From assembly GCF_000588875.1 (NCBI RefSeq), contig NZ_JEMV01000011.1, positions 15,526 to 79,525 on the forward strand: DNA of 64,000 nt, read 5' to 3'. The number at the start of each line of letters is the position of its first letter. The first letter of the stretch is position 1. Of the stretch, positions 38,243 through 64,000 are shown piece after piece. The notes beneath the pieces are model-generated. The model had not been told where the DNA came from. It was given only the letters and a program-made list of their open reading frames with translations, and made no database searches. Position numbers and translations under genes: made by a program. The DNA comes from Sphingobium sp. Ant17 (GTDB taxonomy: Bacteria; Pseudomonadota; Alphaproteobacteria; Sphingomonadales; Sphingomonadaceae).

Positions 38243-38620
38243 ATGAACGCACTTATCGTCCGCCTCGCGCGCCATATATTCACCTGCCTGCGTTGCCGCA
38301 GGGATGAGGCTCTCATGGGCACTATATTTGCCTGGCTCGACGACCAGGAACAAGCGGATCAGGATGAACTTCTGCCTAAACAGCAGTCGCAGGACCGATC
38401 CGCATGGTATTACGATCAATCGGCCTTGTCTTCCGACAAAACCGATATGACCGCACGCTGCGCTGAACATATGCCAACCCTGACCCGGCTCTTTCTCTTG
38501 CTGCGCGTACCTTATGCCATGCAGATTGACGACATTGCGCGAACCTTCGAGATCCGCCCCCGCCGGGTTCGTCGCCATTTACGGCGAGCCGTGGCGATCC
38601 TTGCGCGCGACAGGCATTGA
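38243..38620 (+). CDS. small HTH protein (sigma-70 region 4-like)
   Basis: From ATG 38243 the 125-residue protein has a Cys pair near the start (TCLRCRRDEA), an acidic middle, and a C-terminal HTH (IDDIARTFEIRPRRVRRHLR) like sigma region 4. It ends 4 bp before the primase-like gene, so they are cotranscribed. Role unknown, perhaps control of the element. Confidence 0.55.
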   Translation: MNALIVRLARHIFTCLRCRRDEALMGTIFAWLDDQEQADQDELLPKQQSQDRSAWYYDQSALSSDKTDMTARCAEHMPTLTRLFLLLRVPYAMQIDDIARTFEIRPRRVRRHLRRAVAILARDRH

Positions 38621-38624
38621 CGCA

Positions 38625-39575
38625 ATGACGGTTCCCATCGACCGGCTTGTCATGGAAGCGCGCGCAAAGCTGCTGGTCAACCGTCTGGGCGGCCGCTGGG
38701 CCTCGTCTGGCGGCCTGTGCCTTTGCCCGGCCCATGACGATCATCATCCCAGCCTTTCTGTCCGACTGGGCAAGACAGCTCTGCTCTTCAAATGCTTTGC
38801 AGGCTGCCATGCCCGCGATGTGCTGCGCGCAATCGCACGGATCGACCATCAGGCGCTGACAGCTTGTCATGAGCCAGGTCATTCGACGCGCGATTTTCAA
38901 TCCGGTTTCCGCAGCCAGGCGAGGGACATCTGGCATGCGAGCCGACCGATCGCTGACACGCCGGCACAGGACTATCTGCAGTCTCGTTCCATCACCAATC
39001 TGGGAGAATGGCTGCGCTTTCATCCGCGAACGCCCTTGCGAACCGACACGGGGCTTGAGTTTCGCCCTGCCATGATTGCTGCTGTGCGCGACAGAGAAGA
39101 AATTGTCGCCATCCACCGGACATTCCTTGATCCTCGCTATTCCCGTCTCGCTGCCGACGTACAACCGGCGCGTCGCTTGCTGGGCCGACCCGGCCATGGC
39201 GCCGTCATGCTGGCTCCTGCTACCAATATTCTTGGTCTTGCCGAGGGGATCGAGACGGCCCTGTCGGCCATGTCCTTTCTCGAAATTCCGGTCTGGGCCA
39301 CGCTCGGTAGCGAGCGCTTGCACAGCATTGCCATTCCCGCGTCGGTTAAGCGGCTAATTATCCTGCCCGACAACGATCGTGCGGGCAAAATCGCCGCAAT
39401 GCGTGCGCTGGCGGCGTATCGCGGCGCCGGCAGGCCAGTCAGGCATATCCGGCCGCCATCAGGCTATAATGACTGGAACGATGTCCAGCAGGCAAGGGAG
39501 GGAGGGGGATTGGATGATGTGGCGCAGGAAGACCCGATGGGCGGGTCTTTGGCGCCTGGAGATCCCAGTCGATGA
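38625..39575 (+). CDS. toprim/CHC2 primase-like protein of mobile elements
   Basis: The 316-residue protein has a CHC2-type zinc region (GGLCLCPAHDDHHPSLSV ... FKCFAGCHARDVLRA), a middle segment, then a toprim domain with ILGLAEGIETALSAM (catalytic Glu) and LIILPDNDRAGK (DxD). The toprim-3/DUF7146 type is common on plasmids and integrative elements as a primase without a helicase. Its stop overlaps the next ATG (ATGA at 39572). Confidence 0.8.
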   Translation: MTVPIDRLVMEARAKLLVNRLGGRWASSGGLCLCPAHDDHHPSLSVRLGKTALLFKCFAGCHARDVLRAIARIDHQALTACHEPGHSTRDFQSGFRSQARDIWHASRPIADTPAQDYLQSRSITNLGEWLRFHPRTPLRTDTGLEFRPAMIAAVRDREEIVAIHRTFLDPRYSRLAADVQPARRLLGRPGHGAVMLAPATNILGLAEGIETALSAMSFLEIPVWATLGSERLHSIAIPASVKRLIILPDNDRAGKIAAMRALAAYRGAGRPVRHIRPPSGYNDWNDVQQAREGGGLDDVAQEDPMGGSLAPGDPSR

Positions 39576-41635
39576 ACCAGCTTCCCATTCTCGTTGCCGC
39601 GGCGAACCTCAGCAAGTCGCCATCCAATGTCCGAAAGTCGAGCGATGCTGTCGCCGACGCCCAGCTTGAGGCCAATATCGCGGCCAAGGGCATAAGGCAG
39701 AATCTGATCGGCGTGCCGGTTGCGCGCAAGAAAGGCCATTATCGTATCGCCGCGGGCGGACGGCGCCTCGATGCGGTGCATCGTCTCATCGAAAAGGGCG
39801 TCTTCGGGCCAGACTATCAGGTGCCGGTGCTGGTCCTGCGCGACGCGAAAGATGCGATCGCCACCAGCCTGGAGGAAAATTTCTTCAAGCTCAGCATGAA
39901 CCCAGCGGACACCTGCCGGGCTTTCCAGGATATTGTCGAAACCGAAGGCAAGACCCCGGCCGAGATCGCCAAACGTTTTGGCCTGACCGAGCGCTTCGTA
40001 CTGGGACGGCTGCGCCTTGCGGATCTGGCACCCTGCATTTTTGACGCCCTGCGCGACGGCGAGATCAGCCTTGAGATTGCCACGGCTTATGCCAGCAGTC
40101 CCGATGCCGTGCGCCAGGCGCAGATATTCGAAACTCTGGGGCAGAGCTATTACCGCAATAATCTAAACGAGATCCGGCGCCAGCTTGCCCAAGGCAGCTA
40201 TAGTGGCAATGATCCTAAAGCCCTGCTTGTCGGTCCCCACGCCTATGTGGCCGCCGGTGGCCGGATCGACAGCGACCTGTTCACCGACGATGCGAGCGAG
40301 ATGTGGATCGATGGCGACCTGCTCGATCAACTGGCGACCGACAGGCTGGCGCAGGCGGCGCAAGCGATCCGGGAACGGGAAGGCTTTGGCGATGTCCGCA
40401 TCGTGTCCGGCACTCATATTGCCTATAGCGCAACCTGGGATCTCAAGCCCATTGAGGGCGAACAGCCACCGCTGACGCCAGAGCAGGAACAGCGGCTTGC
40501 TGATATCGAAGTGGAACTGGAAGCGTTCGAGAACCCGGTTGAAACCGACGAGACCGAGGAGGAGGTCGAAGCGCGCTATGATCGGCTGAATGCTGAATAT
40601 GAGGCAATCCGGCAACGGGCACCGATTCTGACCGAGGAGCAAAAGGCGTCCGCACTGGCCTATGTGGTGATCGGTTCCGACGGTCAGCCGCGCGTCCACG
40701 AACAGCTTTATCATGTTCCGGCTGAACAGGCCGACGATGCGCAGGATTCGACCGGTGATGATGATGAAGTCGATGCGGATGCGGATCGCGCGCCAGCACA
40801 GGTGGTGCCGGGCCAGCCAAAGATCAGCCAGCGCCTTGCCGATGAGCTCGCTGAAATGAAGGCTGAACTTCTGCGCGTCCATATCGCCAGCGATCCGCGG
40901 TTCGCGCTCGATCTCGCCACTTTCTGCATGGCTGACGCGGCAACGCGCACCTATGGCAGCGCGGAACGGGCCACCGACCTGCGCGCCAATGCCCCCGCAT
41001 CGCCGCTTCATGGCTATGAGAGCGATACGCCTGCCGCCGACCAGTGGCTCAAGCTGGAAAAAGATCTTGATCGATGCTGGATCAATCATGCCGATGTGCG
41101 GACACGCTATGACGCCTTTTGCGCTTTGAGCCAGGAGGCACGGGCTGCCTGGTTCAGCTGGGCAATTGCCCGGACGGTCCAGGCGGTGCCTGCCGGGCGG
41201 ACCGGCAGCGTGTTTCTCGACCATCTGGGGGTCAAGTGCGGGATCGATGTTACGGCCTGGTGGCGACCGACCGCGCGCAACTATTTCGACCGGGTCAGCA
41301 AGGCGATGATCCTCCAGGCGTTCGAAACGGTCGGCGGCCTAGAGCTGAGTTCCCGCTACGCGGCGTCGAAGAAGCATGATCTTGCGCTCTCGGCCGAGCG
41401 ACTGTTCAGCGGCGATCTCATCGTCGAGGCAGAGGTCAAGGAACGCGCGCTGCAATGGTTGCCGGACGCCATGCGCTTTGTGCCGGTTGGTGAAGCTGAA
41501 GCCAGTCTCACCGGAGATGGCGATGCCGATTGTGGCGTCGGGCGGGTCAGTGTCGATGGGGATGCTGCGGCGGAAGCGCTGGCTGAGGCACCTGACGAAG
41601 ATTCTGGAGAGGACCGCGTCGCGCAGGCGGCCTGA
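39572..41635 (+). CDS. large ParB/RepB-type partition or regulatory protein
   Basis: The 687-residue protein has a ParB N-terminal domain (NVRKSSDAVADAQLEANIAA, GHYRIAAGGRRLDAV) and HTH (TPAEIAKRFGLTERFVLGRL), then a long acidic linker and a conserved C-terminal region of about 200 residues (CGIDVTAWWRPTARNYFDRV). These long ParB-like proteins mark sphingomonad/rhizobial plasmids and ICEs; segregation or transcription control is likely but parS sites are not seen here. A strong terminator follows. Confidence 0.85.
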   Translation: MNQLPILVAAANLSKSPSNVRKSSDAVADAQLEANIAAKGIRQNLIGVPVARKKGHYRIAAGGRRLDAVHRLIEKGVFGPDYQVPVLVLRDAKDAIATSLEENFFKLSMNPADTCRAFQDIVETEGKTPAEIAKRFGLTERFVLGRLRLADLAPCIFDALRDGEISLEIATAYASSPDAVRQAQIFETLGQSYYRNNLNEIRRQLAQGSYSGNDPKALLVGPHAYVAAGGRIDSDLFTDDASEMWIDGDLLDQLATDRLAQAAQAIREREGFGDVRIVSGTHIAYSATWDLKPIEGEQPPLTPEQEQRLADIEVELEAFENPVETDETEEEVEARYDRLNAEYEAIRQRAPILTEEQKASALAYVVIGSDGQPRVHEQLYHVPAEQADDAQDSTGDDDEVDADADRAPAQVVPGQPKISQRLADELAEMKAELLRVHIASDPRFALDLATFCMADAATRTYGSAERATDLRANAPASPLHGYESDTPAADQWLKLEKDLDRCWINHADVRTRYDAFCALSQEARAAWFSWAIARTVQAVPAGRTGSVFLDHLGVKCGIDVTAWWRPTARNYFDRVSKAMILQAFETVGGLELSSRYAASKKHDLALSAERLFSGDLIVEAEVKERALQWLPDAMRFVPVGEAEASLTGDGDADCGVGRVSVDGDAAAEALAEAPDEDSGEDRVAQAA

Positions 41636-41653
41636 GCCTGGGGTATAATGCTG

Positions 41654-41685
41654 GGGACCATGATGTGTCGTCATGGTCCCTTTTT
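41654..41685 (+). terminator. strong rho-independent terminator after parB
   Basis: A perfect 10-bp stem (gggaccatga 41654-41663 with tcatggtccc 41671-41680), loop tgtgtcg, is followed by five T at 41681-41685. It ends the primase-parB transcript before the strawberry-notch gene. Confidence 0.88.
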
Positions 41686-41758
41686 CTGTCCGCCGTCCTG
41701 GGAGGGAAGGGGAGCGGACGAGGCGTGGACCGATCGGGTCCGAGGCCTGGAGATATTT

Positions 41759-44700
41759 ATGACTCTTCCTTTGTTCGCTACGCAGCAGCCTGATCCCGTC
41801 GCAACGCGTTCACGCGCGCAACGCCTATTCGATGTCGCGACAATACTCGCCGACAATCTGACGCAATCGCAAATACCGACCCGACATGCCCTACGAAAGC
41901 TGATGACAGCCAGCTTTGGCGCGAGCGATGCACAAGGCGCATGGTCGATGCGCCAGGCCTATGACGCGCTTGAAATCGCCCTGATACTGTTCCTGCGGCG
42001 GGGGAATAGTGGCATCGCCAGATCCGGAGATCCGACTGCCTGTTACGCCGCTTTGCGCCGTCTTGAAACCAGCCTGCCCACGCACAGCTATCGCAGCGAA
42101 CAGCAGATCGCGATGCAGCAGTTCAGCACGCCGCTGACCCTCGCATGGCTGGCGGTCCAGGCAGCACGCCTTGGGCCAGAGGATCATATTCTCGAACCAT
42201 CGGCAGGCACGGGAATGTTGCTCGGATCCATTCCGCCTGGACGCTGCACCTTCACGCTCAATGAACGCGATCCCGACCGCGCGGCGCTGCTCACGCTTGC
42301 CATCGGGCAGGCTGTCACCTGCCATGACGCGGAATATATCCATGATCTGTTGCCCCTGGGCAATGACCCTTCTGTGGTCCTGATCAATCCGCCCTTCGGT
42401 CGCAGCGAGGGACGCGGCAATGACCGGCAGGCCGGGGTGCGGCATTTGCGCTCGGCCTTGCTACGACTGCGCCAGCACGGTCGCTGTGTCGCCATCATGC
42501 CACCTGGCTTTGCTGCTGATGGCAGCGGCGCAAAAGCCTATGCGACGATCGCGCAATTGATCCCGCCTCGCGTTGAAATCACCATCCTGGGCAGCCCCTT
42601 TGCCAAACATGGCACCGGTATCGCTGTACGACTGCTGTTATTCGACAAGGGATGGCATGGTCAGGGACAAAGTCATGTCGCCGATAATCTGGACGCAGCG
42701 CTTGATCTCGTCCTGGCATTGCCTGACCGGCTCGATCCACCTGCCTTGTTGCCACCCCCGCCGTTGCCAAAGCCACCAAGTCCTGCCGTCGCGTTCCATC
42801 TCCCTCGGCCAAAGGCAAAGGATGAGGCGGCATCGCTGTTTCGCACTTTGTCCGCCACGCCACTCGCCGCGCCGGCGCGTATAGCAGCAAACAATGCCAA
42901 TGCTGTTCCGCTTTCCTACGCCGTACGCGACACGCCTCTGCCGGTAGGCGACCCTGTTGGCATCTATGCGCCCTGGCGGCTTGCGCGGATTGCGATCGAA
43001 GGCGCGACACCTCATCCCGACAATCTGGTGGAATCCCTGGCCATGGGATCAGTATTGCCGCCCGTACCGCGCTGGCAGCCATTATTACAACCAAGGGCGC
43101 TCGCTGCCCTGTCCGAGGCGCAACTGGAAACCATCATCCATGCAGGCGAAGCCTTTTCACGCGATCTGCCCGGTATGTTCACGCCCAATGCAGCAGGGGA
43201 TCAACTCCATGAAGATCCCGCAGGGCGCGCCTATCGGACGGGCTATTTCATTGGCGATGGCACAGGCGTTGGCAAGGGCCGGGAAGGGGCGGGCCTGATC
43301 CTTGACCAGTGGAACAGGGGTAATCGCCGTGCCATCTGGATTTCGCGCAGTGCTGCCCTGCTCGAAGACGCCCGAAGGGACTGGAGCGCCCTTGGCGGCC
43401 TGCCGATCGATATCCAGCCGCTCGATGCCTTCCCGCTCGGTGAGCCGATCACCATGACGTCTGGCATTCTCTTCCTCACCTATGCAACGCTGCGCTCGGT
43501 CCGTCAGGACAATTTCTCACGCCTGCAGCAGATATTGGTCTGGACCGATGCTGAATTTGAGGGCGTCATCCTGTTTGATGAATCCCACGCGATGGGCAAC
43601 GCTGCAGGCACGCAAGGCGATTTTGGAACGGCGAAGGGGTCAGAGCAAGGCCTGGCGGGCGTTCGCCTCCAAAATGCCCTGGCCCGCGCGCGGATAGCCT
43701 ATGTGTCCGCGACGGGTGCCACCAAGCCTGAAAACCTCAGCTATGCCTCGCGCTTGGCCTGTGGGGGCCGGGCACAGGCTTCACCGACCGCAATGCTTTC
43801 ATGGCGGCGATGGACGGGGGCGGGATCGCCGCGATGGAGATCGTGGCGCGCGATCTCAAAGCCACCGGCCTCTACACCGCGCGGGCGCTCAGCTTTGCCG
43901 GGGTGGAATATGATCCGCTCGAACATCGATTGAGCCCTGACCAGATCGCCATCTATGATGCCTTCGCGGATGGGTGGGCGGTGATCCATGCCAATCTGCA
44001 CAAGATATTGGGCGCGTCCGGCGTCGTCGATGCCATGTCAGGACAGACGCTGAACGGCCAGGCTAAAGGCGCGGCGCTCAGTCGATTTGAAAGTGCCAAG
44101 CAGCGCTTCTTCTCGCAATTGTTGATTGCGATGAAGGTGCCGAGCCTGATCAAGGCCATAGAGGCAGAGATAGCCGTCGGCCATGTTGCTGTCGTGCAAC
44201 TCGTCACGACAGCCGAAGCGATATTGGAACGCCGTCTTGCCGACTTATGTGCGGAAGATCGTGCCAGATTAAATCTTGACCTGTCGCCGCTTCAAACCCT
44301 GATTGATTATCTCACATCGGCCTTTCCCACCCGGCAGATGCGGGTGTACCGCGCCAGCGACGGCGAACTACGCTCTGAACCGATGATCGATGCCGACGGG
44401 CAGCCCGTTCATTGCCAGGAAGCGCTCAATGCGCGCGACACGATGATCGAGGATCTGTGCGCGCTCCCTCCCATCCCTGCTCCCCTGGACGCGCTCATCG
44501 CGCATTTTGGTGCGGACAAGGTCGCCGAGGTTACCGGGCGCTCACGCCGGATCGTCGTTGATAGCAGCGGGCGGCAGCAGGTCGAGCGGCGCGGCACACA
44601 TGCCAATATCAGCGAAACACGGGCGTTTATGGAAGGGGTCAAGCCCATATTGATATTCAGCGACGCTGGATCCACCGGGCGCTCCTACCATGCCGATCTT

Positions 44701-46073
44701 GCCAGCAAAAGCGCAGACAAACGCCGCATCCATTTCCTGCTCGAACCGGGTTGGCGTGCCGACGTCGCGATCCAGGGGCTTGGGCGCACCCATCGTACCA
44801 ACCAGGCCTGCCCCCCGGTGTTCCGGCCTGTGACCACCAACTGCAAGGGCGAACGCCGCTTCATCAGCACGATTGCGCGAAGGCTGGACGGCTTGGTGCC
44901 CTAACTCGCGGACAACGGCAGACGGGCGGCCAAAATATGTTCGATCCGGCCGACAATCTTGAAAGCGACTATGCGCGTGAAGCGCTTGGGCAATGGTATC
45001 GGCTGCTTTTCGCAGGCAAGCTTTCCAGCGTGACGATGGGCGACTTCGTCACACTGACTGGTCTCAAGCTCGTCGATGAGGGCGGTAACCTGCTTGAAAC
45101 CCTCCCGCCCATCCAGCGCTGGCTCAATCGCATCCTGGCGCTGCGGATCGCGATCCAGAATGCGATCTTTGAGGAATATATGGGTCTTATCCAGGCGAGG
45201 GTGGACGCAGCACGCGCGGCGGGCACGCTGGACCTTGGCGTCGAGACTATTCGCGCCGAGCGGATCGAGACCTTGTCTGAGCAGATTTTGCGCACAGATC
45301 CGGTAACCGGCGCGCAGACCCGTCTGTTGCGCCTCGAGCTTCACATCCGGCCCCGCGTTAGCACATGGCACATCCTGAACCAACGATATCAGGGCATGGA
45401 CGACATGGCTTGGTTGCGCAACAACCGCTCCGGGCGCGTCGCTTTGCAATTGCCCTCCTGGTCGATCACCGATGAAGAAGGGCGACCCATTCCCATGTGC
45501 CAGCTTGTCCGGCCCACCGGATCGATGCGGATCGATCGGGCATCGCTCGCGCATAGTCACTGGGCCTGCATCGATGCCGAGACATTCAAGGGTGACTGGG
45601 ACGAGGAGGTAGCCGCCGCGGAAGGACGGCTCGACGTCGAGAACATCTGGGTCGCGACGGGCCTTCTTCTGCCTGTCTGGAACAGGCTACCACAGGACGA
45701 TGTGCGCGTGTGGCGTATCGATAATGGCGCGGGCACATCCATCTTAGGCCGGATCATTCGTCCGGGCGCGGTTGAAAAACTGCAGGCAGCCTTTGGACTG
45801 GAACAGGGCATAAGGCTGGGTGCCAGAGACCTGCTTACTGCCGTAAAAGCTGGGGACGACGTCGCCATACCGGGTCTTGGTAAAGCACGTCTTGCCTATG
45901 TTCTCGTCAACAGTGCCCGTCGCCTTGAAATCCGCGACTATGATGCTGATGACCGCGCCTGGCTGAAAGCGCGCGGTGTGTTCAGCGAGATCATCCAGTA
46001 TCGCTTGCGGCTTTTCGTTCCCGTCGACAGGGCTGTCGAAATACTCGACGCGATCATCGCGGAGCGACGCTGA
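41759..46073 (+). pseudogene. strawberry-notch-type methylase/helicase, split by two 1-nt deletions
   Basis: ATG 41759 (ggag 8 bp upstream) opens a protein of about 1438 residues in three frames. The first stops at 43931-43933 but loses homology at about 43757, where one missing G restores SRLGLWGPGTGFTDRNAFMA; a second missing G near 44895 restores RRLDGLGALTRGQRQTGGQN. Features: adenine-methylase motifs EPSAGTG (about 145) and NPPFG (about 210), helicase motif GDGTGVGKGRE (about 500) and DESH (about 606), and a strawberry-notch C-terminal helicase (IFSDAGSTGRSYHADLASKS; GLGRTHRTNQ). Common on sphingomonad plasmids; DNA modification, anti-restriction or replication roles are possible. Confidence 0.8.
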
Positions 46074-48696: not shown

Positions 48697-49893
48697 ATGT
48701 CCAGTCTTACAATACCTGTCGACAATGCGCCGGTAACGGGTGCCTATCGCGTCGATATTTCCCGCGGCCATAATGTCAGCCGTGTCTCGTCAGAATGGTT
48801 TTCGCGCCCCGAAGACGAGAAATTCCTGTCGCTGACCGACCTTTACGACAATGTCCGCACGCGGGCCGAGCAAGCGACAACACGGATCGTCGAAAGCCGA
48901 TCGCTCCGGGTTGAAGCGCGTGCCGATAATCCAGAACGCCTGACCTTGTTCGTGCCGGGCGAGGATATGCCTATCGCGCCCACCAACTGGTCCTTTGGCC
49001 AGCTCTCCAGCCTGGTCGGTGCACCCGCTTCCTATCTGCGCTCGCTACCCGCAGCGCTTGCCGGCATCAATCTCCAGCATGGTCTGCTGGCGCATCGCGG
49101 CGAACAGGTGAAGCTGCTTCAGACGCAGGATGGCCGCGCTGAATTGCGCGCGGTTACGGGTCCTGATTATGGGCGCATCTGGGATCATGAGCTGGTCGCC
49201 GCAGTCATGAAGATCGCGGGCGACGGCGTGGGCGATACGCGCTGGAAAGTGCCCGGCGTTCTTGACTGGTCTTCGATGCACTATAACCCCTTTGTCGATG
49301 TAACGCGTGATACGACGACGCTCTATGCGTCCGATCGCGATGTCTTCCTCTTCCTTGTGGATGATACCCACCCGATTGAGGCCGGACGCCTTGCCAATGG
49401 CGATCCGGACCTGTTCTTCCGCGGCTTTTACTGCTGGAATTCGGAAGTCGGGTCAAAGACGCTGGGCATTGCCACTTTCTACCTGCGCGCCGTCTGCATG
49501 AATCGCAATCTGTGGGGTGTGGAGAATTTCGAGGAAATCTCGATCCGCCACTCCAAGTTTGCCGCCAATCGCTTCGCCCATGAAGCCGCGCCTGCACTTG
49601 AAAACTTCGCTGATTCCTCCGCCAGCGGCTTCATCCAGGGCATTCGCGCCGCACGCGAGCGCATCGTTGCCCGCACCGACGAAGATCGCCAGACATTCCT
49701 GCGAGGTCAGGGTTTTTCCAAAGCCGAAACCGGCAAGATCATCGCCACCGTGCTGGCCGAAGAAGGTCATCCGCCTGCCAGCATTTTCGACTTTGTCCAG
49801 GGCATCACCGCCCATGCCCGGTCCAAATCCAACCAGGACAGCCGTCTCGACGTTGAGGCGAAGGGACGCCGCTTACTCGAACGGGCGCATTAA
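48697..49893 (+). CDS. DUF932-family protein
   Basis: The 398-residue protein has the DUF932 (TIGR03299, phage/plasmid-like) layout: SFGQLSSLVGAPASYLRSLP, ELRAVTGPDYGRIWDHELVA, FLFLVDDTHPIEAG and FYLRAVCMNRNLWGVENFEE. DUF932 genes are frequent on plasmids and phages; function unknown. ATG 48697 follows gaggag. Confidence 0.82.
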   Translation: MSSLTIPVDNAPVTGAYRVDISRGHNVSRVSSEWFSRPEDEKFLSLTDLYDNVRTRAEQATTRIVESRSLRVEARADNPERLTLFVPGEDMPIAPTNWSFGQLSSLVGAPASYLRSLPAALAGINLQHGLLAHRGEQVKLLQTQDGRAELRAVTGPDYGRIWDHELVAAVMKIAGDGVGDTRWKVPGVLDWSSMHYNPFVDVTRDTTTLYASDRDVFLFLVDDTHPIEAGRLANGDPDLFFRGFYCWNSEVGSKTLGIATFYLRAVCMNRNLWGVENFEEISIRHSKFAANRFAHEAAPALENFADSSASGFIQGIRAARERIVARTDEDRQTFLRGQGFSKAETGKIIATVLAEEGHPPASIFDFVQGITAHARSKSNQDSRLDVEAKGRRLLERAH

Positions 49894-50281: not shown

Positions 50282-50686
50282 ATGCCTTCCTCTGCAAAGC
50301 GCGGCCTTGCCTCGCTTCTGGCGGGATCGTCCATGCCCGCACGCACCCATCCTGAATTGCGCAGCCGACCTGCAGAACAGTCGCCCACGCCCGCAATTGG
50401 CATGATCGGCAAATATCAGCTGCTTTCCACCGCGCATCTCTCAATGAACACGGCGCTGCTGCTCGATAGCTGGTGCAATGGCCACGCCCATGAAGCGCCA
50501 ACCACCGTGGCGCGCAACGCCCATGGCTGGTTTTTATCGACCCGCTCTATGTCAGCCGATTGCGAACGCGCCCTGCCTGCCGATCTGATGGCTGCCATCC
50601 TCTTTGCGCGGCGGCGCGGCATCGATCTGCTGCATTTCGACTGCGATGGTCCAACGCTGCCGCAATTGCTGGTGCATGACTGGTGA
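50282..50686 (+). CDS. DUF5983-like protein upstream of the GHKL ATPase
   Basis: From ATG 50282 the 134-residue protein has QLLSTAHLSMNTALLLDSWC, GWFLSTRSMSADCERALPAD and GIDLLHFDCDGPTLPQLLVH. The pattern STxHxx...W and LLxFDxDxP recurs in the gene after the ATPase (52527). I associate it with the DUF5983 group; function unknown. Confidence 0.6.
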   Translation: MPSSAKRGLASLLAGSSMPARTHPELRSRPAEQSPTPAIGMIGKYQLLSTAHLSMNTALLLDSWCNGHAHEAPTTVARNAHGWFLSTRSMSADCERALPADLMAAILFARRRGIDLLHFDCDGPTLPQLLVHDW

Positions 50687-50814
50687 ACATGAAGCACGCC
50701 GGCGGAAAATCGCTTTCGCGTGGATCGGCCTGGCAGCGGCGCATTTGCGATCGGAGGGGAGGGGGACTTTGAGAAGGGGTGGAAAATGACCGCCTGTCCA
50801 AGGAGACACATATA

Positions 50815-52482
50815 ATGGCTTTACCTCTCACGATCACCCCACAGGTGGGCGCGTCCCTCATCACGCGCGTCACGCGTCTGTTCAATGGCACGATCCACGA
50901 TGTGTTGAACGAACTTCTGCAAAACAGCCGCCGCGCTGGTGCCAGTGCTGTAAATCTGGATCTTGAAGGCTCCGATGGTGCCCCCATCCTTGTCGCGAGT
51001 GATGACGGTTCGGGCATCGATGACCCGGTTGCGCTGCTGACTCTTGGCTATTCAGGCTGGAATGATACGGTTGCCCACCGCGAAGATCCGGCCGGCATGG
51101 GCATGTTCAGCCTTGCAGGACGTCAAGTCGAAATACGTTCCTGGTCGCGCAGCGCGGGCAGGGGCTGGATGGTCGAGATCCCCGAACAAGGCTGGCAGAG
51201 CCCAGAGCCACTCGCGATCCAGCCCTGCGCCATAACCGGCGGTACGCAGTTGCGCATCGCTTTGCCGGACGCATGGGCCAAGAATTTGCTAGCCGCCGCC
51301 CGCAACGCCGCCCGCTATTTTCCGCTGCCGGTAACTTTGTCGGGCACGTCTCTGCCACGCGAGGACTTCCTCGCCGAAGCTGCTCGGGTCGAAAACTGGC
51401 AGGGCTGCCGCATCGGCATTTTCAGCTGGCGCGGCTACCAGCCGGTCGACATGGCCCGTATTAATTTTCATGGGCTTACCGTGCCTTGCGATTTGCCGTT
51501 CGTGTCGGAGGTGGGCAAAATCGACAAATGGTGCGTGAAGGTCGACATTATCGACGCGCCCGATCTGCAACTGGTTCTGCCTGCGCGCAAGGAACTGGTC
51601 CGCAATGCGGGGCTCGACGCGCTCAAGATCGCGGCAGAAGCCGCTATTTATCGGATGATCTGCGACAATGGCGACCATCGACTGGGCTTTACGGAATGGG
51701 CGCGCGCCAGGGCATTGGGCATCATGCTGCCGCATGCAGCGCCCTGGCTTCCATGCTGGGCACCAATGACCGCCGACAGCATGGGGTGCGATCAGGGCGA
51801 ACCCATATCGTCTCCTGATATGCTGGTCGTGCCCGCAATGGAGATAGATCTTCAGCAAGGCGCTGCGCCGATACTGAATGCGCCGGAAAAGCTCGGCATG
51901 TGCACGGTACGGATCGCGCCGGGATTTTCTGGCTATGACTGGTATGACAGACTGCCCCGCCTGCAGACTCTTGCCTTTGTGATAGAGCAAAATGGCCTCG
52001 AACATATGTATGAGGCCGACACCGAACTGGATCCGTCCTGCACATCGGGACGGGCCGACGCAATCACGCTCGAACTGGGGATCGCCGATTGCGCCTTGCC
52101 TGGCGCGACGCTTACGAAGCGATGCTTCCCGCTTGAAATGCTGGTGTGTCGCAATGAAGGCTATGATCTCGATGATGCGATCATCCTTATTGGAAGCAAC
52201 GCCGTCGTTTCACCCGATGATCTGGCCTGGCAAATGGAGCTGAGCCTTTTTAGGGCATCGGATGACAGCGATTGCGACAGTTGGGAAACCCAGCAGGACA
52301 ATTTTCAACGAAGCGCGCGTAACAACGCTTATGCGTTGCTGCTGAGCGAGGAGGAGGCTCTGCTGCGGCAAATCCGCGACAGGCTTACCGACAAGGTGCA
52401 ATGGCTGATACCCCCGGACCGCACTCTCAAGGTTACAGCGACCCGTACGGGCGTCGAACTGACATTGGAACCGGCGCCATGA
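50815..52482 (+). CDS. stand-alone GHKL ATPase
   Basis: The 555-residue protein from ATG 50815 (aaggag upstream) has the GHKL ATP-binding motifs: N-box NELLQNSRRAGA (about 32), G1 SDDGSGIDDPVA (about 62) and G2 GMGMFSLAGRQ (about 94). The remaining about 400 residues (ARINFHGLTVPCDLPFVSEV; QLVLPARKELVRNAGLDALK) resemble no kinase, gyrase or Hsp90 domain. GHKL proteins cycle ATP-dependently by dimerising. It sits between two related small proteins (50282, 52527). Confidence 0.75.
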   Translation: MALPLTITPQVGASLITRVTRLFNGTIHDVLNELLQNSRRAGASAVNLDLEGSDGAPILVASDDGSGIDDPVALLTLGYSGWNDTVAHREDPAGMGMFSLAGRQVEIRSWSRSAGRGWMVEIPEQGWQSPEPLAIQPCAITGGTQLRIALPDAWAKNLLAAARNAARYFPLPVTLSGTSLPREDFLAEAARVENWQGCRIGIFSWRGYQPVDMARINFHGLTVPCDLPFVSEVGKIDKWCVKVDIIDAPDLQLVLPARKELVRNAGLDALKIAAEAAIYRMICDNGDHRLGFTEWARARALGIMLPHAAPWLPCWAPMTADSMGCDQGEPISSPDMLVVPAMEIDLQQGAAPILNAPEKLGMCTVRIAPGFSGYDWYDRLPRLQTLAFVIEQNGLEHMYEADTELDPSCTSGRADAITLELGIADCALPGATLTKRCFPLEMLVCRNEGYDLDDAIILIGSNAVVSPDDLAWQMELSLFRASDDSDCDSWETQQDNFQRSARNNAYALLLSEEEALLRQIRDRLTDKVQWLIPPDRTLKVTATRTGVELTLEPAP

Positions 52483-52526
52483 CGCCTTCGCACCCTCCAA
52501 AAATTCCTGCTCTGGGGAGGCTTGAT

Positions 52527-52850
52527 ATGCGACGATCCGCGATGTTTACCCTGTCCACTATGCATATTCCGCTCGCCGAGCGACAGAAGATCGAAATGCT
52601 GATCAGCGCCGCGCCGCGCGGCGATGATGGCCGATTGCATGTCGCGCATGATGATCTGGTTATCGAACCCCATCTCTACGGATTCTTCGTTCATTGCGGC
52701 ATCGCCGCTTGCCAGGCCGCCGATCCGCCGGACATCTCGCCTCAACTCTGGGCGCTTCTTTCGGCAGCCAATGCGGACGGGGCGTCCTGGCTGCTGTTCG
52801 ACCGGGATGAACCACCATCCTCTTGCTGGCCGACGTTCGATGCAGGTTGA
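52527..52850 (+). CDS. small DUF5983-like protein downstream of the GHKL ATPase
   Basis: ATG 52527 has ggggagg 7 bp upstream. The 107-residue protein reads FTLSTMHIPLAERQKIEMLI, HLYGFFVHCGIAACQA and GASWLLFDRDEPPSS. It shares STxHx and LLxFDxDxP with the gene at 50282, so the two look like divergent paralogues around the ATPase. Confidence 0.55.
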   Translation: MRRSAMFTLSTMHIPLAERQKIEMLISAAPRGDDGRLHVAHDDLVIEPHLYGFFVHCGIAACQAADPPDISPQLWALLSAANADGASWLLFDRDEPPSSCWPTFDAG

Positions 52851-52954: not shown

Positions 52955-53224
52955 ATGCCATCCAGCTTCACCTTAGGAACCCATTTCGAGGGCTTCATCA
53001 AGCAACAGGTGAACACCGGTCGTTATGCATCGGCCAGTGAGGTCATTCGCGACAGCCTGCGTCTGCTAGAGGAGCAGGACGCCATGCGACAGGCGCGGCT
53101 TGAGGCGCTACGCGCCGAGATCGATCTGGGTGCGAGCAGCGGGACTGGCATACCTGCGGAGCAAGCCTTCGCAAATGCAAGGGCACGCATTGCTGACATC
53201 GCCGCTGCCAACAAGGAGCAGTGA
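52955..53224 (+). CDS. parD: ParD-type antitoxin
   Basis: The 89-residue protein has an RHH N-terminus (SFTLGTHFEGFIKQQVNTGR, YASASEVIRDSLRLLEEQDA) and a toxin-binding tail. It binds its own promoter and neutralises ParE. Its stop overlaps the ParE start (TGATG). Confidence 0.85.
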   Translation: MPSSFTLGTHFEGFIKQQVNTGRYASASEVIRDSLRLLEEQDAMRQARLEALRAEIDLGASSGTGIPAEQAFANARARIADIAAANKEQ

Positions 53225-53511
53225 TGCATCTTTCGTTTTCGCCGGCAGCCGACGCTGATCTGACAGATATTGCCAGTTTCATTGCGCGGGATAATGTTGA
53301 TCGGGCGTTGACATTCATCGATGAACTTCAAGCGGCTTGCACAAAGCTTCTCGATTTTCCTGACTCTGGCACGGTGCGTTCCGAGGTTCGCCCCGATCTG
53401 CGTTCCAGAGTATATGGCAGTTATGTGATTTTCTACACGCTTGTGCCGGGGAGTGTCCGCATTGAACGCATTCTCCACGGTGCCCGGGATGTGAGCACTA
53501 TCCTGTCGTAA
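53224..53511 (+). CDS. parE: ParE-type toxin
   Basis: From ATG 53224 the 95-residue protein has the RelE/ParE fold: LSFSPAADADLTDIASFIAR, DELQAACTKLLDFPDSGTVR and RSRVYGSYVIFYTLVPGSVR, ending IERILHGARDVSTIL. ParE inhibits gyrase. The pair stabilises the mobile element. Confidence 0.87.
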   Translation: MHLSFSPAADADLTDIASFIARDNVDRALTFIDELQAACTKLLDFPDSGTVRSEVRPDLRSRVYGSYVIFYTLVPGSVRIERILHGARDVSTILS

Positions 53512-53662: not shown

Positions 53663-53869
53663 ATGTCCAACACCGATCCTGCGGCATCGCTATCGCCGCG
53701 TCGCCAGCGACTGTCCTCGTTCGAAAATTCTTACGCCGTCGCCTTGCAACGCCAGCGGCAGACCGGCGTCAGCCAGTTCATCCTTCGGACAGCTAACCCG
53801 TTGCAGCCCTTCCGCACGACCAGTAGTGCGCCCAGGTCTCAGGAATATATTGTGGCGCTGGTCGCTTGA
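53663..53869 (+). CDS. small plasmid-type protein
   Basis: ATG 53663 has ggag upstream. The 68-residue protein (LSSFENSYAVALQRQRQTGV; SQFILRTANPLQPFRTTSSA) resembles short sphingomonad plasmid proteins with the pattern GVxQFxxRTxxPLQPFR (from memory). It overlaps the tail of the minus-strand DUF6880-like gene. Function unknown. Confidence 0.5.
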   Translation: MSNTDPAASLSPRRQRLSSFENSYAVALQRQRQTGVSQFILRTANPLQPFRTTSSAPRSQEYIVALVA

Positions 53870-55318
53870 ACAGAAATGGTCTGCGATCAGCTCCCAGAAA
53901 CCACGCTTGCGTCCATGCTGTGCCTGGAGCGTTGCTACATAGGTTTCATGGTCGGGATGACTGCCATAATCATCGATCCGTCGGGCAAGATGCGCGCAGC
54001 TTTCCAGATGGCGGGCGGCGTGCGGATATCGTTTGACCCGCGCCCGCTCCAGCGCGAAATCGACCATCGCGCGAAGCGCCAATGTGGCCGCCAGCGGATG
54101 GCGGCTTTCCAGCGCCTCGGCAGCATGGTTGAGCAGTTCATACGGATCGCCATCCAGCTCGTCAGCGCGCGCCAGCACCATAGCTGCCGCGCCCTCGATA
54201 TCAGGCCAGGCGAGCAGGAAATGCAGGGCATGGGATAAGGACGGGAAAGCGCGGACATGGGCCAGCGCCTTCTTCTCCGCGTCGAGATCGTCAAAATCGG
54301 GCAGGCGTTTGAGATAGGCCCGCAGATATTCAGGCTCGAGCGCCGTGGCGAACCTATCCCATCGTTCGGCCTGCGCCTCGTCGGTGCGGCCCAGGGAATC
54401 GAGGATAGCAATCCGCACCCGGTCCCAATCCGGCCAGTGGCCACCTTTCTGCCGTACGGCCTGCGCGTGCTCGATAGCCGCCATCGCCTCGTCCGTCCGG
54501 CCCGCGTCGCCCAAGCGCTCGGCGATCGCCGCGGCGATGGCGGGATTGTCGCGCTGTTCGACGGGATATTGGGCTATGAAAGCATCCACATCACCCAGCG
54601 CATCGGCAATGTCCAGCAGCGCGGTCTGGACCGTGCGGGCGTGACGCCGGAACTCGATGTCATCCTCGTAGAGGACGCCGCCTGACCCATAGCCGATGAT
54701 CTGCCGGTCGGCCTGCGCCTGGCGTTTCGGAGGGTTTGTCGCCATCGCCTCGAACCTTGTCTTGAGCAAGCGGAGGCCGCCTTCCGCCAGAACTGGCGCC
54801 ATCAGGGCGATGAGTCCGTCAAACTGGCCATAGCCATTGTCGCAGACGCTATCGAATACCCTGTCCGCTAGCCGGGCGGTTGGCATTTTCGCTGCCGCGG
54901 CCAAGGGCGCAAGATCGGGTAACGCAGTGGCGAATATCGTGCCCATCTGGCCGCTGCTATCATCGCAGCGATCGAACACTGGCCTTGCCAGGGCCACCAG
55001 CTTCCAGATCAGATCCAACGCCGTCGCCGGATCATGGGGGGCGACATGATCCATGATCGCTCTCCGTTGCGTCTCTATGTCCGCTGCCAGCAGCTTTACC
55101 TTGTGCCAGTCGACAAAGGCTTTCGCCTTGGCGATGGTCGCAAGCCGCTTGCCGATCTCGCCGGCAACATCCCCGCTGCCACGCACGCTGGCCAGCTCCA
55201 GCCGCAACCGCCGCTTGGCCTGCGCGTCCCCCGTCACAAGCTCCAGTAGCAACTGCGCCAGGCGCTGGGCGCCAAGCGCTTCGAGGTTGGTCTGATTGAG
55301 GGTTTTGGATGTGGCCAT
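53690..55318 (-). CDS. DUF6880-like repeat protein
   Basis: The 542-residue protein from ATG 55318 is helical and repeat-like (TPR/HEAT character), with LLLELVTGDAQAKRRLRLEL, FVDWHKVKLLAADIETQRRA, WDRVRIAILDSLGRTDEAQA and HETYVATLQAQHGRKRGFWE. I place it near the DUF6880 group. The last about 60 residues after GFWELIADHF overlap the plus-strand gene at 53663 antisense and may not be part of the natural protein. Confidence 0.6.
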   Translation of the reverse strand: MATSKTLNQTNLEALGAQRLAQLLLELVTGDAQAKRRLRLELASVRGSGDVAGEIGKRLATIAKAKAFVDWHKVKLLAADIETQRRAIMDHVAPHDPATALDLIWKLVALARPVFDRCDDSSGQMGTIFATALPDLAPLAAAAKMPTARLADRVFDSVCDNGYGQFDGLIALMAPVLAEGGLRLLKTRFEAMATNPPKRQAQADRQIIGYGSGGVLYEDDIEFRRHARTVQTALLDIADALGDVDAFIAQYPVEQRDNPAIAAAIAERLGDAGRTDEAMAAIEHAQAVRQKGGHWPDWDRVRIAILDSLGRTDEAQAERWDRFATALEPEYLRAYLKRLPDFDDLDAEKKALAHVRAFPSLSHALHFLLAWPDIEGAAAMVLARADELDGDPYELLNHAAEALESRHPLAATLALRAMVDFALERARVKRYPHAARHLESCAHLARRIDDYGSHPDHETYVATLQAQHGRKRGFWELIADHFCSSDQRHNIFLRPGRTTGRAEGLQRVSCPKDELADAGLPLALQGDGVRIFERGQSLATRR

Positions 55319-55668
55319 GCGCCATTTCTGTCGTCCCGGAACGATGGGCGTCAAGAGTGGAATGATATCGGAACTGGGAAAGGGCGACTGCCCGCGCGGT
55401 GCGCGGGCACCGGGCTGGCGGGCTTGCGCCCCAAGCCCCGCTGCGCGGGTCTTGGCCCTGACGGGCGCACATCCCTGCCGCGTGGGGAGGGGGTTTGCCC
55501 AAAACGAAGGCGCGGTGGGGCGTGGGGCCTTGGGGGCATAAGGCGGAAAGGCAGCGGGTCGCCGCTACCAGTGGCGCAGGGGGCGAGGGCAGGATCAGAG
55601 GAGAGGAGGATCTGAAAAGATTGTCGCCGGAAATGGGTTTCGAGCGATTATCTGGAAAGGTTAAGTCA
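55319..55668. other. GC-rich intergenic region with hairpins
   Basis: This 350-bp region between divergent genes is very GC-rich and has no supported gene. A clear hairpin is gcccgcg/cgcgggc at 55390-55408 with a 5-nt loop, and more G/C repeats follow to about 55570. The right end holds the DUF736 ribosome site (ggaaagg). The hairpins resemble REP-type elements, but no family is assigned. Confidence 0.5.
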
Positions 55669-60896: not shown

Positions 60897-61199
60897 ATGG
60901 CCCGAATAACGATCCGTCTCGATGACGCCCTGTTCGACCGACTGGTCGATCAGGCCCATAACAGTGGCAGCACTCCGTCTGCCTATCTTCGTGATATTCT
61001 GCACCGCTTTGAGGGGGATGATCCATCGGGCTATCATGCCCGTCTGGATGAGCTGCACGCGACCGCCATTCAGACCCTGGCGATTCTCGCCAAGTCCATT
61101 GGCACGCGCACGCCCGACATATTGGCAGCCGGGCTGGCCGATGCCCGACGCCTGCTCAAGGAAAGGGGGCTGCTCGATCCTGAGCAGGATCGGCCATGA
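60897..61199 (+). CDS. ribbon-helix-helix protein of the transfer operon
   Basis: The 100-residue protein from ATG 60897 has an RHH DNA-binding start (ARITIRLDDALFDRLVDQAH, NSGSTPSAYLRDILHRF) and a helical C-terminus. RHH proteins at this position serve as oriT accessory factors (TrwA-like) or autoregulators. Its stop overlaps the traD start (ATGA). Confidence 0.72.
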   Translation: MARITIRLDDALFDRLVDQAHNSGSTPSAYLRDILHRFEGDDPSGYHARLDELHATAIQTLAILAKSIGTRTPDILAAGLADARRLLKERGLLDPEQDRP

Positions 61200-63286
61200 G
61201 CATTTTCCGGCATGATACATTGGGGTCCTGGACGCGTGGCGGACAGGCGATCGTCCACAATGTCCGCATGACCACGCAGGTCTTCTACCAGACCTTTCTT
61301 GCCAGTGTCATTATCTGGGTTGGCGGCATCATCTGGTATGCGCTGGAGAAGTCATCCGACTATGAACGCTTCGTTCTGATGAAGCTCGGCCAGGCAATGG
61401 TGATGGGCGATACCATCCCTGGCAACGTCACGCCCATATTGTTCAAGACACCCGCTGGCCGCGAATATTGGACGACGCCCAGAGATATACTGGAATCCGG
61501 CATTGCCCATAAGACGCTTGTCGCTTTCGAAACCTATCTCCTGCACGGGGCGGCGCTTTCGGGCCTATTTGCCCTCGCTATGCTGTTCTGGGCCTGGTTC
61601 TATTTTACCCGCATGGGCAGGGGGCTCGGGTCGAACCAGTTCCTGCGCGGTGCGCGCTTTGGAACCGTGCGGCAGATACGCCGGGCGTTGCGCTGGCAGA
61701 AGCGCGGCAGCCTCGCCATCGGCGGCGTTCCCGTGCCTCACGCATTCGAGCCAGAGCATATCCTCATCTGCGGCGCGCCTGGCACAGGCAAGACCAACCT
61801 CATCATCAAGATGCTCGACGGGGTACGCAAGACGAAGCGCCGGGCTATCATATATGACACTGCGGGTACGTTTGTGGAGAAATTCTACCGGCCAGGCACC
61901 GACATCCTCCTCAACCCGCTCGATGCCCGCGCTGATGCCTGGGCCCCCTGGGTCGATGTGCCGCGCGACTATCATTATGACCAGATTGCGGAATCGACCA
62001 TCCCCGACAAGACCGGCGATCCCTTCTGGGCGAAAGCGGCGCGCGGCACGCTGGTCGCCGTCATGCGCAAGTTGGCGCGGCAGGAACGGACCCTGGTTTC
62101 GATCCTGCTGGACACCCTGCTTCGGTCCAAGCTCAAGGAACTGGCCGCTTTTGCCGCCGGAACCGATGCGTCGGCCTTTATTTCCATTGAAGGGGAACGA
62201 ACCTCAGCGGGCATCCAGGCGGAACTCGCTTCGGTCATGCGCAGCTTCTCCTATCTGGATGATACAGATGATGGCCTGTCGATCCGCGATTGGGTCGCCA
62301 ATGAAAAGGATGATAGCTGGCTATTCATTACCGTAAAGGCTGACCAGTTGCCCTCGCTTCGTCCGCTGATAACGGTCTGGCTGGACATCGCGATCAGCGC
62401 CATCATGAGCCTGGAGCCGGACCAGGATCGGCGTCTTTACTGTGTGATCGATGAACTGCCATCACTCCAGAAACTGCCCTCGCTCTCCGACTTTCTGGCC
62501 CGCGCCCGCAAATATGGCGGATGTGGTATATTGGGGTTTCAGAGCTATCCGCAGCTTGAAGCCACCTATGGTATTCAGGATGCAGCAGCCATCACCGGCT
62601 ATTGCTCGACCTGGGTAGCGCTGCGCGCCAACGACACCCCGACCGCAAGGCATGTCAGCGAAAATCTGGGACAGGTTGAACAGGTCGAAGCCAATGAGGG
62701 CATGTCCTACGGCGTCAACGATATGCGCGATGGGGTAAATCTGTCGCGCATGCAAGTGACCCGGCCGTTGGTCATGCATACCGAGGTTACCAACCTTCCC
62801 AATCTCGTCGGCTATCTGCGTTTTGGTCGCAGTCTTCCGGTTGTGCGCTTTATCGACAGCTATAATAAGTTGCCCTCAATTGCTGTCGCGTTTGCAGAGC
62901 GGATTGCCCCGCCTGTCCGCCTGTCACCGCAGTTGGATGGGGAAGGGGCACCGACAAACACTGCATCGAAACGCGGGGCCAGGCTGACCCGTCGCAAGAC
63001 TTCATCGTCATCCCACGCGACCGCCGAAATTCCGCCTGAACAAGAAGCCGGTTTTGGCGGGGTAGATGCGCCCGCACCAAATGCCGTTATGCCGAGCAGG
63101 AATGATGGTGAAAGCCAAGCGCCACCTGTACCACCGCCGTTGGAGCTTTTTGGCAAGCCCGCGGCTTCCGCCTTTCCCAGCATGCGCGTCATGATGGTGC
63201 TCGCAACAGGGCGACGCCGGCATGATCCATCCTCGTCGCTTGAAGGGCACACCGACCAATCTCACCCGCTATTATATGGTGGGTGA
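61196..63286 (+). CDS. traD: TraD/TrwB-type conjugative coupling ATPase
   Basis: The 696-residue protein has two N-terminal TM helices (about 33-50 and 115-138), Walker A GAPGTGKT (193-200), the TrwB DNA-binding ATPase core (RAIIYDTAGTFVEKFYRPGT; DILLNPLDARADAWAPW) and Walker B-like LYCVIDELPSL. It pumps the relaxase-bound strand into the type IV secretion channel. The last about 20 residues run 65 bp into the relaxase gene; an alternative frame would end at TGA overlapping ATG 63222, so a base may be missing near 63200. Confidence 0.88.
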   Translation: MSIFRHDTLGSWTRGGQAIVHNVRMTTQVFYQTFLASVIIWVGGIIWYALEKSSDYERFVLMKLGQAMVMGDTIPGNVTPILFKTPAGREYWTTPRDILESGIAHKTLVAFETYLLHGAALSGLFALAMLFWAWFYFTRMGRGLGSNQFLRGARFGTVRQIRRALRWQKRGSLAIGGVPVPHAFEPEHILICGAPGTGKTNLIIKMLDGVRKTKRRAIIYDTAGTFVEKFYRPGTDILLNPLDARADAWAPWVDVPRDYHYDQIAESTIPDKTGDPFWAKAARGTLVAVMRKLARQERTLVSILLDTLLRSKLKELAAFAAGTDASAFISIEGERTSAGIQAELASVMRSFSYLDDTDDGLSIRDWVANEKDDSWLFITVKADQLPSLRPLITVWLDIAISAIMSLEPDQDRRLYCVIDELPSLQKLPSLSDFLARARKYGGCGILGFQSYPQLEATYGIQDAAAITGYCSTWVALRANDTPTARHVSENLGQVEQVEANEGMSYGVNDMRDGVNLSRMQVTRPLVMHTEVTNLPNLVGYLRFGRSLPVVRFIDSYNKLPSIAVAFAERIAPPVRLSPQLDGEGAPTNTASKRGARLTRRKTSSSSHATAEIPPEQEAGFGGVDAPAPNAVMPSRNDGESQAPPVPPPLELFGKPAASAFPSMRVMMVLATGRRRHDPSSSLEGHTDQSHPLLYGG

Positions 63287-64000
63287 TTATTACACCAAAG
63301 GTGCCGACGAACATTCGCAATGGGGTGGCGCCATCGCTGCGGAGCTTGGACTGAACGGTAAGGTCGATCCCTCGACCTTCCAGGCTTTGCTTGATGGGAA
63401 GGTCGATGAGCAGAAGCTGGGGCGCCGCCGCGGCGAAAGCAAGATCCAGCATCATCCAGGATGGGACTTTGCAGTGAATGCGCCAAAATCGGTGTCGATC
63501 ATGGCGCTCGTTGCTGGTGACGAACGGGTCATTGCCGCGCATGAAAAAGCGGTGAGCGTGGCGCTATCCTATCTGGAGGAACATGCGACGCTGCGTCACC
63601 GGGTCGATGGCAACATCACTCATGAAACCACCGGGCGTCTGATCTATGCTCGGTTTACCGAACATGCCTCGCGCGAACTGGACCCCCACCTCCATACCCA
63701 TGTCGTGATCATGAACATGACAAATCGGGGGGACGGAACGCCCATGTCCAGCCTCGAAACCCGGGCGATGTTTTCAGAACAGATGGTTGCAGGGCAGGTT
63801 TATCGCAACGATCTGGCCCATCGGCTTAAAGAACTTGGCTATGGAATCGACTATGATCCGCGCAAGGGACTGTTCGAGATTGGTGACGTACCCAAAGAAC
63901 TCATCAAACATATGTCCCAGCGCGCGGAGCAGATCGAGGCGCATGCGAGAGAAAATGGGCTGGCGGGCCAGGCGGCCCGACGTATGTCCTTTTACCAGAC
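63222..64000 (+). CDS. traI: MobF (TrwC/TraI-type) relaxase, N-terminal part
   Basis: From ATG 63222 the frame is open to the window end (about 259 residues). It shows the MobF relaxase: catalytic-Tyr region LTRYYMVGDYYTKGADEHSQ, HHPGWDFAVNAPKSVSIMAL, TGRLIYARFTEHASRELDPH and the three-His metal site DPHLHTHVVIMNM. The relaxase nicks oriT and leads the strand into the recipient; the helicase part lies beyond the window. Confidence 0.92.
   Translation, partial: MIHPRRLKGTPTNLTRYYMVGDYYTKGADEHSQWGGAIAAELGLNGKVDPSTFQALLDGKVDEQKLGRRRGESKIQHHPGWDFAVNAPKSVSIMALVAGDERVIAAHEKAVSVALSYLEEHATLRHRVDGNITHETTGRLIYARFTEHASRELDPHLHTHVVIMNMTNRGDGTPMSSLETRAMFSEQMVAGQVYRNDLAHRLKELGYGIDYDPRKGLFEIGDVPKELIKHMSQRAEQIEAHARENGLAGQAARRMSFYQ

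Follow-up and report, generated by a model that had tools for sequence, protein, structure and literature searches.

A conserved GHKL ATPase family in conjugative elements of sphingomonads and its lineage-specific pairing with DUF5983 proteins

The rIIA/B proteins of phage T4 protect it against RexAB exclusion (PMC8594841), and GHKL proteins centred on rIIA have been called poorly understood counter-defence systems (PMC7824862). For conflicts during transfer, a domain toolkit comprising ArdC, ParB and SNF2-type or strawberry-notch ATPases has been described; that source makes no mention of GHKL (PMC5512222), and the main text of a survey of leading regions mentions neither GHKL nor ATPase nor DUF (PMC11541004). 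In Escherichia coli, DUF5983 is encoded downstream of CbtA (PMC10790755, PMC13294457). The locus considered here is a GHKL ATPase gene flanked by two DUF5983 genes in a 64,000-nucleotide stretch of Sphingobium sp. Ant17 (NZ_JEMV01000011.1, positions 15,526 to 79,525; hereafter the window), itself a piece of a 98-kb contig. The ATPase belongs to a real, conserved and little described family, and its pairing with DUF5983 is lineage-specific. It holds a fixed place in sphingomonad conjugative elements despite scoring under Pfam cut-offs. A search by title of the openly available literature, with most subscription papers outside its scope, found no description of the family among the titles listed. 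In the plasmid records listed, annotations of the gene read 'ATP-binding protein', 'sensor histidine kinase' or 'hypothetical protein', and in some it is left unannotated.

The ATPase carries the motifs NELLQNS, DDGSGID and GMGMFS, and relatives that can be aligned over the full length (alignment A1) keep the GHKL and transducer motifs in 31 rows, 30 of them different (L038 and L058 are identical). A1 excludes broken, partial or very distant copies (L043-L045, L047, L057, L069-L072, L075), near-identical copies (L036, L037, L051, L062, L078) and another kind of GHKL protein (L076, L077). The superfamily motifs (N-box E..N, DxGxG, GxG lid, GT) are invariant or nearly so, with E33, N37, D63, G65, G67, G94 and G96 the same in every row, and the transducer motif PAR(K)E is conserved. 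The PARKE of the window ATPase resembles the lysine motif of MutL. The predicted model (14-row input; pLDDT 79.3, pTM 0.68) shows the Bergerat fold of the superfamily, matching Hsc82 (Z 18.7; 335 residues aligned, rmsd 6.0), TRAP1 (Z 18.6; 256 residues, rmsd 3.4), MORC2 (Z 16.5) and GyrB (Z 16.2); the best Foldseek match is TRAP1 (E = 1e-11). Residues 10-384 of the model align to Hsp90s in the same ATPase plus middle-domain layout as Hsp90, HtpG and TRAP1, and among the matches listed no structural alignment extends past residue 434. However, Pfam HSP90 (PF00183) does not match the protein up to E 0.1. With MutL, MORC and GyrB it shares GHKL and an S5-type transducer, but it has no match to their C-terminal domains and lies far under the MutL cut-off (13.8 against 180 bits). 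The fold class is clear, and no single family is nearest: the ATPase forms a distinct family with a predicted Hsp90-like ATPase-plus-transducer fold and a C-terminal half that, as far as sequence tells, is the family's own.

The family is widespread on plasmids. A tblastn search retrieved 101 plasmid records at E 1e-3, of which 59 cover at least 80% of the query; represented are Roseomonas (11), Sphingobium (10), Novosphingobium (9), Sphingopyxis (8), Sphingomonas (7) and other genera. The nearest copy lies on the megaplasmid pBSY17_1 of Sphingobium sp. RAC03 (97.8% identity), and close copies occur in Sphingobium AS12 (97%) and S. terrigena (95%). Full-length or near-full-length relatives are found in Agrobacterium, Shinella, Roseomonas and Leptolyngbya, and distant ones, matching mainly in the ATPase domain, on plasmids of Paraburkholderia, Methylomonas, Rhodanobacter, Rhodoferax, Vibrio and Manganitrophus. 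The family thus reaches, at full length or by its ATPase domain, beyond sphingomonads into other proteobacteria, a cyanobacterium, a Nitrospirota plasmid and viral contigs. Five long branches of the ATPase tree (L040, L041, L042, L056, L065) are placed with little certainty. Among 298 genomes sampled at the family level, 25 carry the gene (seven with weak matches, E 1e-6 to 1e-3, were not scored as positive); in a sample of the class it occurs in 5 of 385, the window's own genome counted.

A scan of viral contigs with the single ATPase sequence returned no match, and a profile scan returned 15 IMG/VR contigs of 38-208 kb, as did a second one (the same 15). Among those looked at, L086 encodes RecA and DNA polymerase A, and L085 an RNA ligase. 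L084 (10001-20183) and L085 (9977-21650) also encode a second, rIIA-like GHKL protein matching annotated rIIA, 6.1 and 8.5 kb beyond the window-type ATPase; the two proteins are thus separate in these contigs. One 'phage' record matches as well, an unverified 11-kb 'Bacteriophage sp.' scaffold from human faeces (L083, MT836346.1). Its genes are ordered as in sphingomonad conjugative elements, so it may be plasmid DNA instead.

In the window, all three genes lie on the + strand (Table 1), as a preliminary description made from the DNA letters alone had it for a 555-residue GHKL protein between two related small proteins. The relatedness was borne out, both small proteins exceeding the curated cut-off of PF19419, DUF5983 (88.2 and 65.4 bits against 27), although a direct BLASTP comparison of the two is marginal (E 0.025). 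Of the motifs that they were said to share, STxH is matched exactly by both proteins; LLxFDxDxP fits only the first exactly (LLHFDCDGP), the second reading LLFDRDEP. A profile built from the pair gave 27 open-frame matches in the loci gathered by then, near-identical and broken copies included, and none at E up to 1 against reversed sequences. Judged by eye, the matches fall into an 'upstream' and a 'downstream' subtype. The predicted DUF5983 model is too poor for use (pLDDT 56.5; a single weak structural match, Z 2.4). In L056 (6360-6938) and L079 (9655-10257), the downstream protein has a C-terminal extension with paired cysteines and a zinc-ribbon-like look.

GAGGAG stands 7 nucleotides ahead of small gene 1 and AAGGAG 9 nucleotides ahead of the ATPase gene. 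Small gene 2 has an alternative open frame with an ATG from 52479, but a start at 52527 is more likely, because all eight rows of alignment A2 have Met17, GGGGAGG stands ahead of it and the annotation of Sphingobium RAC03 starts at the matching codon. Against three near relatives, dN/dS is 0.02-0.27 for small gene 1, 0.17-0.27 for the ATPase gene and 0.13-0.31 for small gene 2, with few differences in either small gene; all three are under purifying selection and look real and maintained. In scans for promoters (0 found, 2.0 expected) and terminators (3 found, 3.1 expected) the counts were such that the operon limits were judged from gene spacing alone: 128 bp separate small gene 1 from the ATPase gene, and 44 bp the latter from small gene 2. 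A repeat search gave no clear repeat. The window's genome holds a second, apparently decayed copy of the set (L069, G000:C34:28179-30223), in which the ATPase and the downstream DUF5983 gene are each split over two frames.

The linkage of the two families recurs in other genomes. In the same 298 genomes, DUF5983 is present in 27 and both genes in 14, that is, in 14/25 genomes with the ATPase against 13/273 others (Fisher p 1.5e-10), a test that cannot tell a functional link from joint carriage on one element. DUF5983 lies within 10 kb at 13 of 31 ATPase places. Conversely, 19 of 37 DUF5983 places are within 10 kb of the ATPase and 18 farther away (one row of 38, under the Pfam cut-off, was dropped from these counts). 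On the ATPase tree, the window's clade has 11 rows, 6 of which are accompanied by the downstream subtype. Two-sided flanking, as in the proposed three-gene unit, is local: copies on both sides within 4 kb occur at 6/31 places, one of them a broken copy, other genes often stand between the upstream copy and the ATPase gene, and both gaps are below 150 bp only in the window. The DUF5983 linkage is real but local and lineage-specific. It is less likely than not that ATPase and DUF5983 merely share a backbone and travel together with no joint work, as might be thought from the 18/37 distant DUF5983 places, from the 18/31 ATPase places with no DUF5983 within 10 kb and from a PP-loop protein (cluster c3) that is a slightly commoner neighbour of the ATPase (15/38 loci, against 13/38 for DUF5983), since the two genes are on the same strand in all 13 linked places and the downstream match starts 62-90 bp past the ATPase match in six places, the subtype following also the distant row L065 (37% identity). 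Near copies in an Agrobacterium pTi, two Roseomonas plasmids, an Enterobacter plasmid and two viral contigs likewise speak against chance. A DUF5983 profile scan of viral contigs gave nothing confirmed by tblastn, yet two viral ATPase loci hold a copy, that of L085 above the Pfam cut-off. The 38 loci remain after ten (L036, L037, L051, L058, L062, L072, L074-L077) were dropped as duplicates, as not of the full family or as lacking the ATPase; some of those kept have broken copies.

The mobile-element setting first proposed was confirmed as a conjugative backbone. A MOBF relaxase gene (TrwC) lies within 35 kb downstream of the ATPase gene, at 10.8-30.7 kb and on the same strand, at 14/16 places in the 11 of 25 ATPase genomes covered by the search; at the remaining two, TrwC is 128 kb off in one case and the genome has none in the other. 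This position shows backbone membership, not function.

For function, we give a probability of roughly 36% to a clamp that may help an incoming element to gain a foothold in the face of host defences, DUF5983 being an accessory. The argument is one of analogy with rIIA, the protector of T4 from exclusion. The ATPase would act as a dimer, forming an ATP-operated clamp of the Hsp90/MutL/rIIA type of GHKL protein, with its gene in the accessory region of a MOBF/F-type conjugative element. After entry into a new cell, it would probably bind DNA or a protein of the host or of the element, and its ATP-driven closure would block restriction or abortive-infection responses, or set up the incoming DNA for maintenance. 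The DUF5983 genes are probably co-transcribed with the ATPase gene in the window's lineage, and their products would serve as regulator, adaptor or client of the clamp, not as an essential part. Like rIIA, the protein has an N-terminal GHKL ATPase and a variable C-terminal part, and among the 50 matches listed from the viral structure library BFVD, rIIA names are the commonest (rIIA 16, 'protector' 2, topoisomerase 5, Hsp90-family chaperone 1). Several neighbours are known from conflict or transfer settings: strawberry notch, ArdC or antirestriction proteins, Mom and PRTRC.

A number of observations weigh against an establishment clamp. The window ATPase scores under every Pfam and NCBIfam cut-off (HATPase_c_3 17.3 bits against 25; HATPase_c 13.9 against 26.4), and a PHROG scan gave weak matches only (E 0.19, 0.22). 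A single-sequence phmmer search with it yields no rIIA. In profile-profile comparison, rIIA, Hsp90, MutL and Mza-type GHKL proteins match to about the same degree, and the similarity is confined to the ATPase domain; against rIIA, hhalign spans 150-152 columns, and no full-length relation was found. rIIA leads (5.2e-10) when its set includes two phage-contig proteins. With the three annotated rIIA alone, the value is 6.6e-7, against 7.6e-8 to 1.1e-7 for Hsp90 and 9.6e-8 to 9.3e-7 for MutL (at three rows each, 6.6e-7, 1.1e-7 and 9.6e-8, respectively). The idea that the ATPase is nearest to rIIA was rejected on the loss of this lead, and rIIA is therefore an analogy by fold class and setting, with no closer kinship. 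Besides, DUF5983 was found within 8-10 kb at only 4 of the 16 non-sphingomonad plasmid loci surveyed, so that the ATPase often stands without it, and in the class sample, outside the window's genome, the ATPase (4/384, E 1e-10) and DUF5983 (2/384, E 1e-4) never overlap. The role is inferred, and ParB, PRTRC and Toprim neighbours fit a maintenance role equally well.

Such a maintenance role, in which the ATPase would be a MutL/MORC/GyrB-like DNA clamp working with ParB, PRTRC or Toprim proteins in replication, segregation or recombination with no host conflict, is a real possibility, and the lost rIIA lead raised it while weakening the establishment clamp. The ATPase has ParB or PRTRC genes nearby in pSH2, pNL1, pTiCFBP4996 and Shinella, as does a distant relative in Manganitrophus. 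The MORC2 and GyrB folds match at Z about 16, and MutL is the best match of the ATPase domain in a profile search of PDB sequences (5.9e-7; MORC2 1.4e-5). However, no toprim, nuclease or MutL C-terminal domain of Pfam or NCBIfam scores on the ATPase, and antirestriction genes are also among the neighbours. The establishment clamp is favoured slightly because of the fold class, the setting and the occurrence in viral contigs. A bolder proposal is that an undescribed Hsp90/rIIA-like ATP clamp, common to conjugative elements and large phages, disarms host defence on entry as a plasmid counterpart of the T4 rII escape from exclusion, and that DUF5983, hitherto an orphan of CbtA loci in E. coli, is its dedicated co-factor in one lineage; it was likewise weakened by that loss and is unlikely. 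If the ATPase is a counter-defence clamp, the long-standing and poorly understood rII question could be put to the test on a plasmid system, and DUF5983 would have its first role.

The preliminary description had left defence, anti-defence and plasmid maintenance open. By context, anti-defence or plasmid establishment is the better reading; a known phage-defence function was not borne out, none of the three proteins matching PADLOC at E up to 1. A cargo anti-phage system in which the GHKL protein acts as sensor is an improbable reading of the unit. GHKL proteins are known in defence systems, and a HerA/mad8-like ATPase gene lies two genes ahead of the GHKL ATPase gene in some loci, but no effector domain of Pfam or NCBIfam scores above its cut-off, as the description had said, and the conserved backbone position and the presence in viral contigs argue for a role in the service of the element. 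MzaB of the Mza defence system, one of the closest known systems, is a GHKL ATPase of similar length. As a control, the GHKL protein of L077 matches MzaB at E 1.6e-112; the window ATPase, in contrast, has a common profile with MzaB over the ATPase domain only, and the Mza partners MTase, Z1, DUF4420 and AIPR belong to L077, not to the window unit. In L076 and L077, loci of two genomes of the same taxonomic family, genes for a DNA methylase, GHKL, Z1, DUF4420 and AIPR form the cassette of an Mza-type defence system (by Pfam on L077, and by the same clusters on L076).

Least probable is an addiction module of the unit and ParDE, in which DUF5983 would partner a toxin, as near CbtA in E. coli. 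The toxin-antitoxin pair noted directly after the window unit is indeed there, but ParDE was rejected as part of the unit: it was not found in L036, which carries the unit itself. Both window small proteins belong to the same family as the protein of the E. coli locus, PF19419; their partner, however, is a GHKL ATPase in place of CbtA/CbeA, and no CbtA match was found among the window proteins scanned with Pfam. We know of no GHKL toxin of the window ATPase's shape.

Table 1. Features of the window (positions in nucleotides of the window, or in residues where stated)
Feature	Position	Strand	Basis or remark
Small gene 1, DUF5983 (PF19419) 'upstream' subtype, 134 aa	50282..50686	+	Pfam E 4.7e-25
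GHKL ATPase, 555 aa	50815..52482	+	motifs, alignment, predicted model
ATPase domain parts	residues: ATPase about 10-170; S5-like transducer about 190-285		transducer with LVLPARKE; distinct C-terminal part
Small gene 2, DUF5983 'downstream' subtype, 107 aa from likely start	52527..52850	+	Pfam E 6.1e-18
DUF7146/Toprim protein, backbone	38514..39575	+	library scan of window proteins
ParB-like protein, backbone	39572..41635	+	PRTRC-type match under curated cut-off
Strawberry-notch helicase gene, three overlapping open frames	41648..46073	+	AAA_34 and Helicase_C_4 split between frames
DUF932-like protein	48697..49893	+	below Pfam cut-off; phrog_1362 E 3.5e-44; RAC03 copy annotated DUF932
ParD antitoxin	52955..53224	+	Pfam; not constant beside unit
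ParE toxin	53224..53511	+	Pfam; not constant beside unit
TraD coupling protein, backbone	61196..63286	+	478 bits against curated cut-off 521
Start of MOBF relaxase (TrwC) region, runs past window end	63267..64000	+	match at G000:C11:78792-79586

Further backbone genes of the window encode MucR and DUF736 proteins. The strawberry-notch region is one long frame in AS12 (L036) and split in the window, where decay and sequencing error are indistinguishable. Annotated surroundings were examined at 24 ATPase places, hand-picked for spread; other recurrent neighbours are PAPS-reductase-like, Mom-like, HerA/DUF87, DUF7007, DUF3768 and DUF736 proteins. The ATPase of L048-L053 has a gene for a Mom-like DNA-modification protein nearby (PF25680, from a test of L049) and, in four of these six loci, one for a PAPS-reductase-like protein. 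Another recurrent block, in L059, L064, L080, L082 and L083, consists of c12, DUF7007, a HerA/DUF87-like ATPase (mad8-like), c15, the GHKL ATPase and c3 (families tested on L082). Clusters c3 (PP-loop) and c8 (PAPS-reductase) gave no significant profile match to each other (E 0.038), and c3 has a weak match to SspD (3e-6). The minus strand of the window encodes, at 53690-55354, a DUF6880 protein (E 2.3e-183) that weakly matches the PADLOC candidate PDC-S62.

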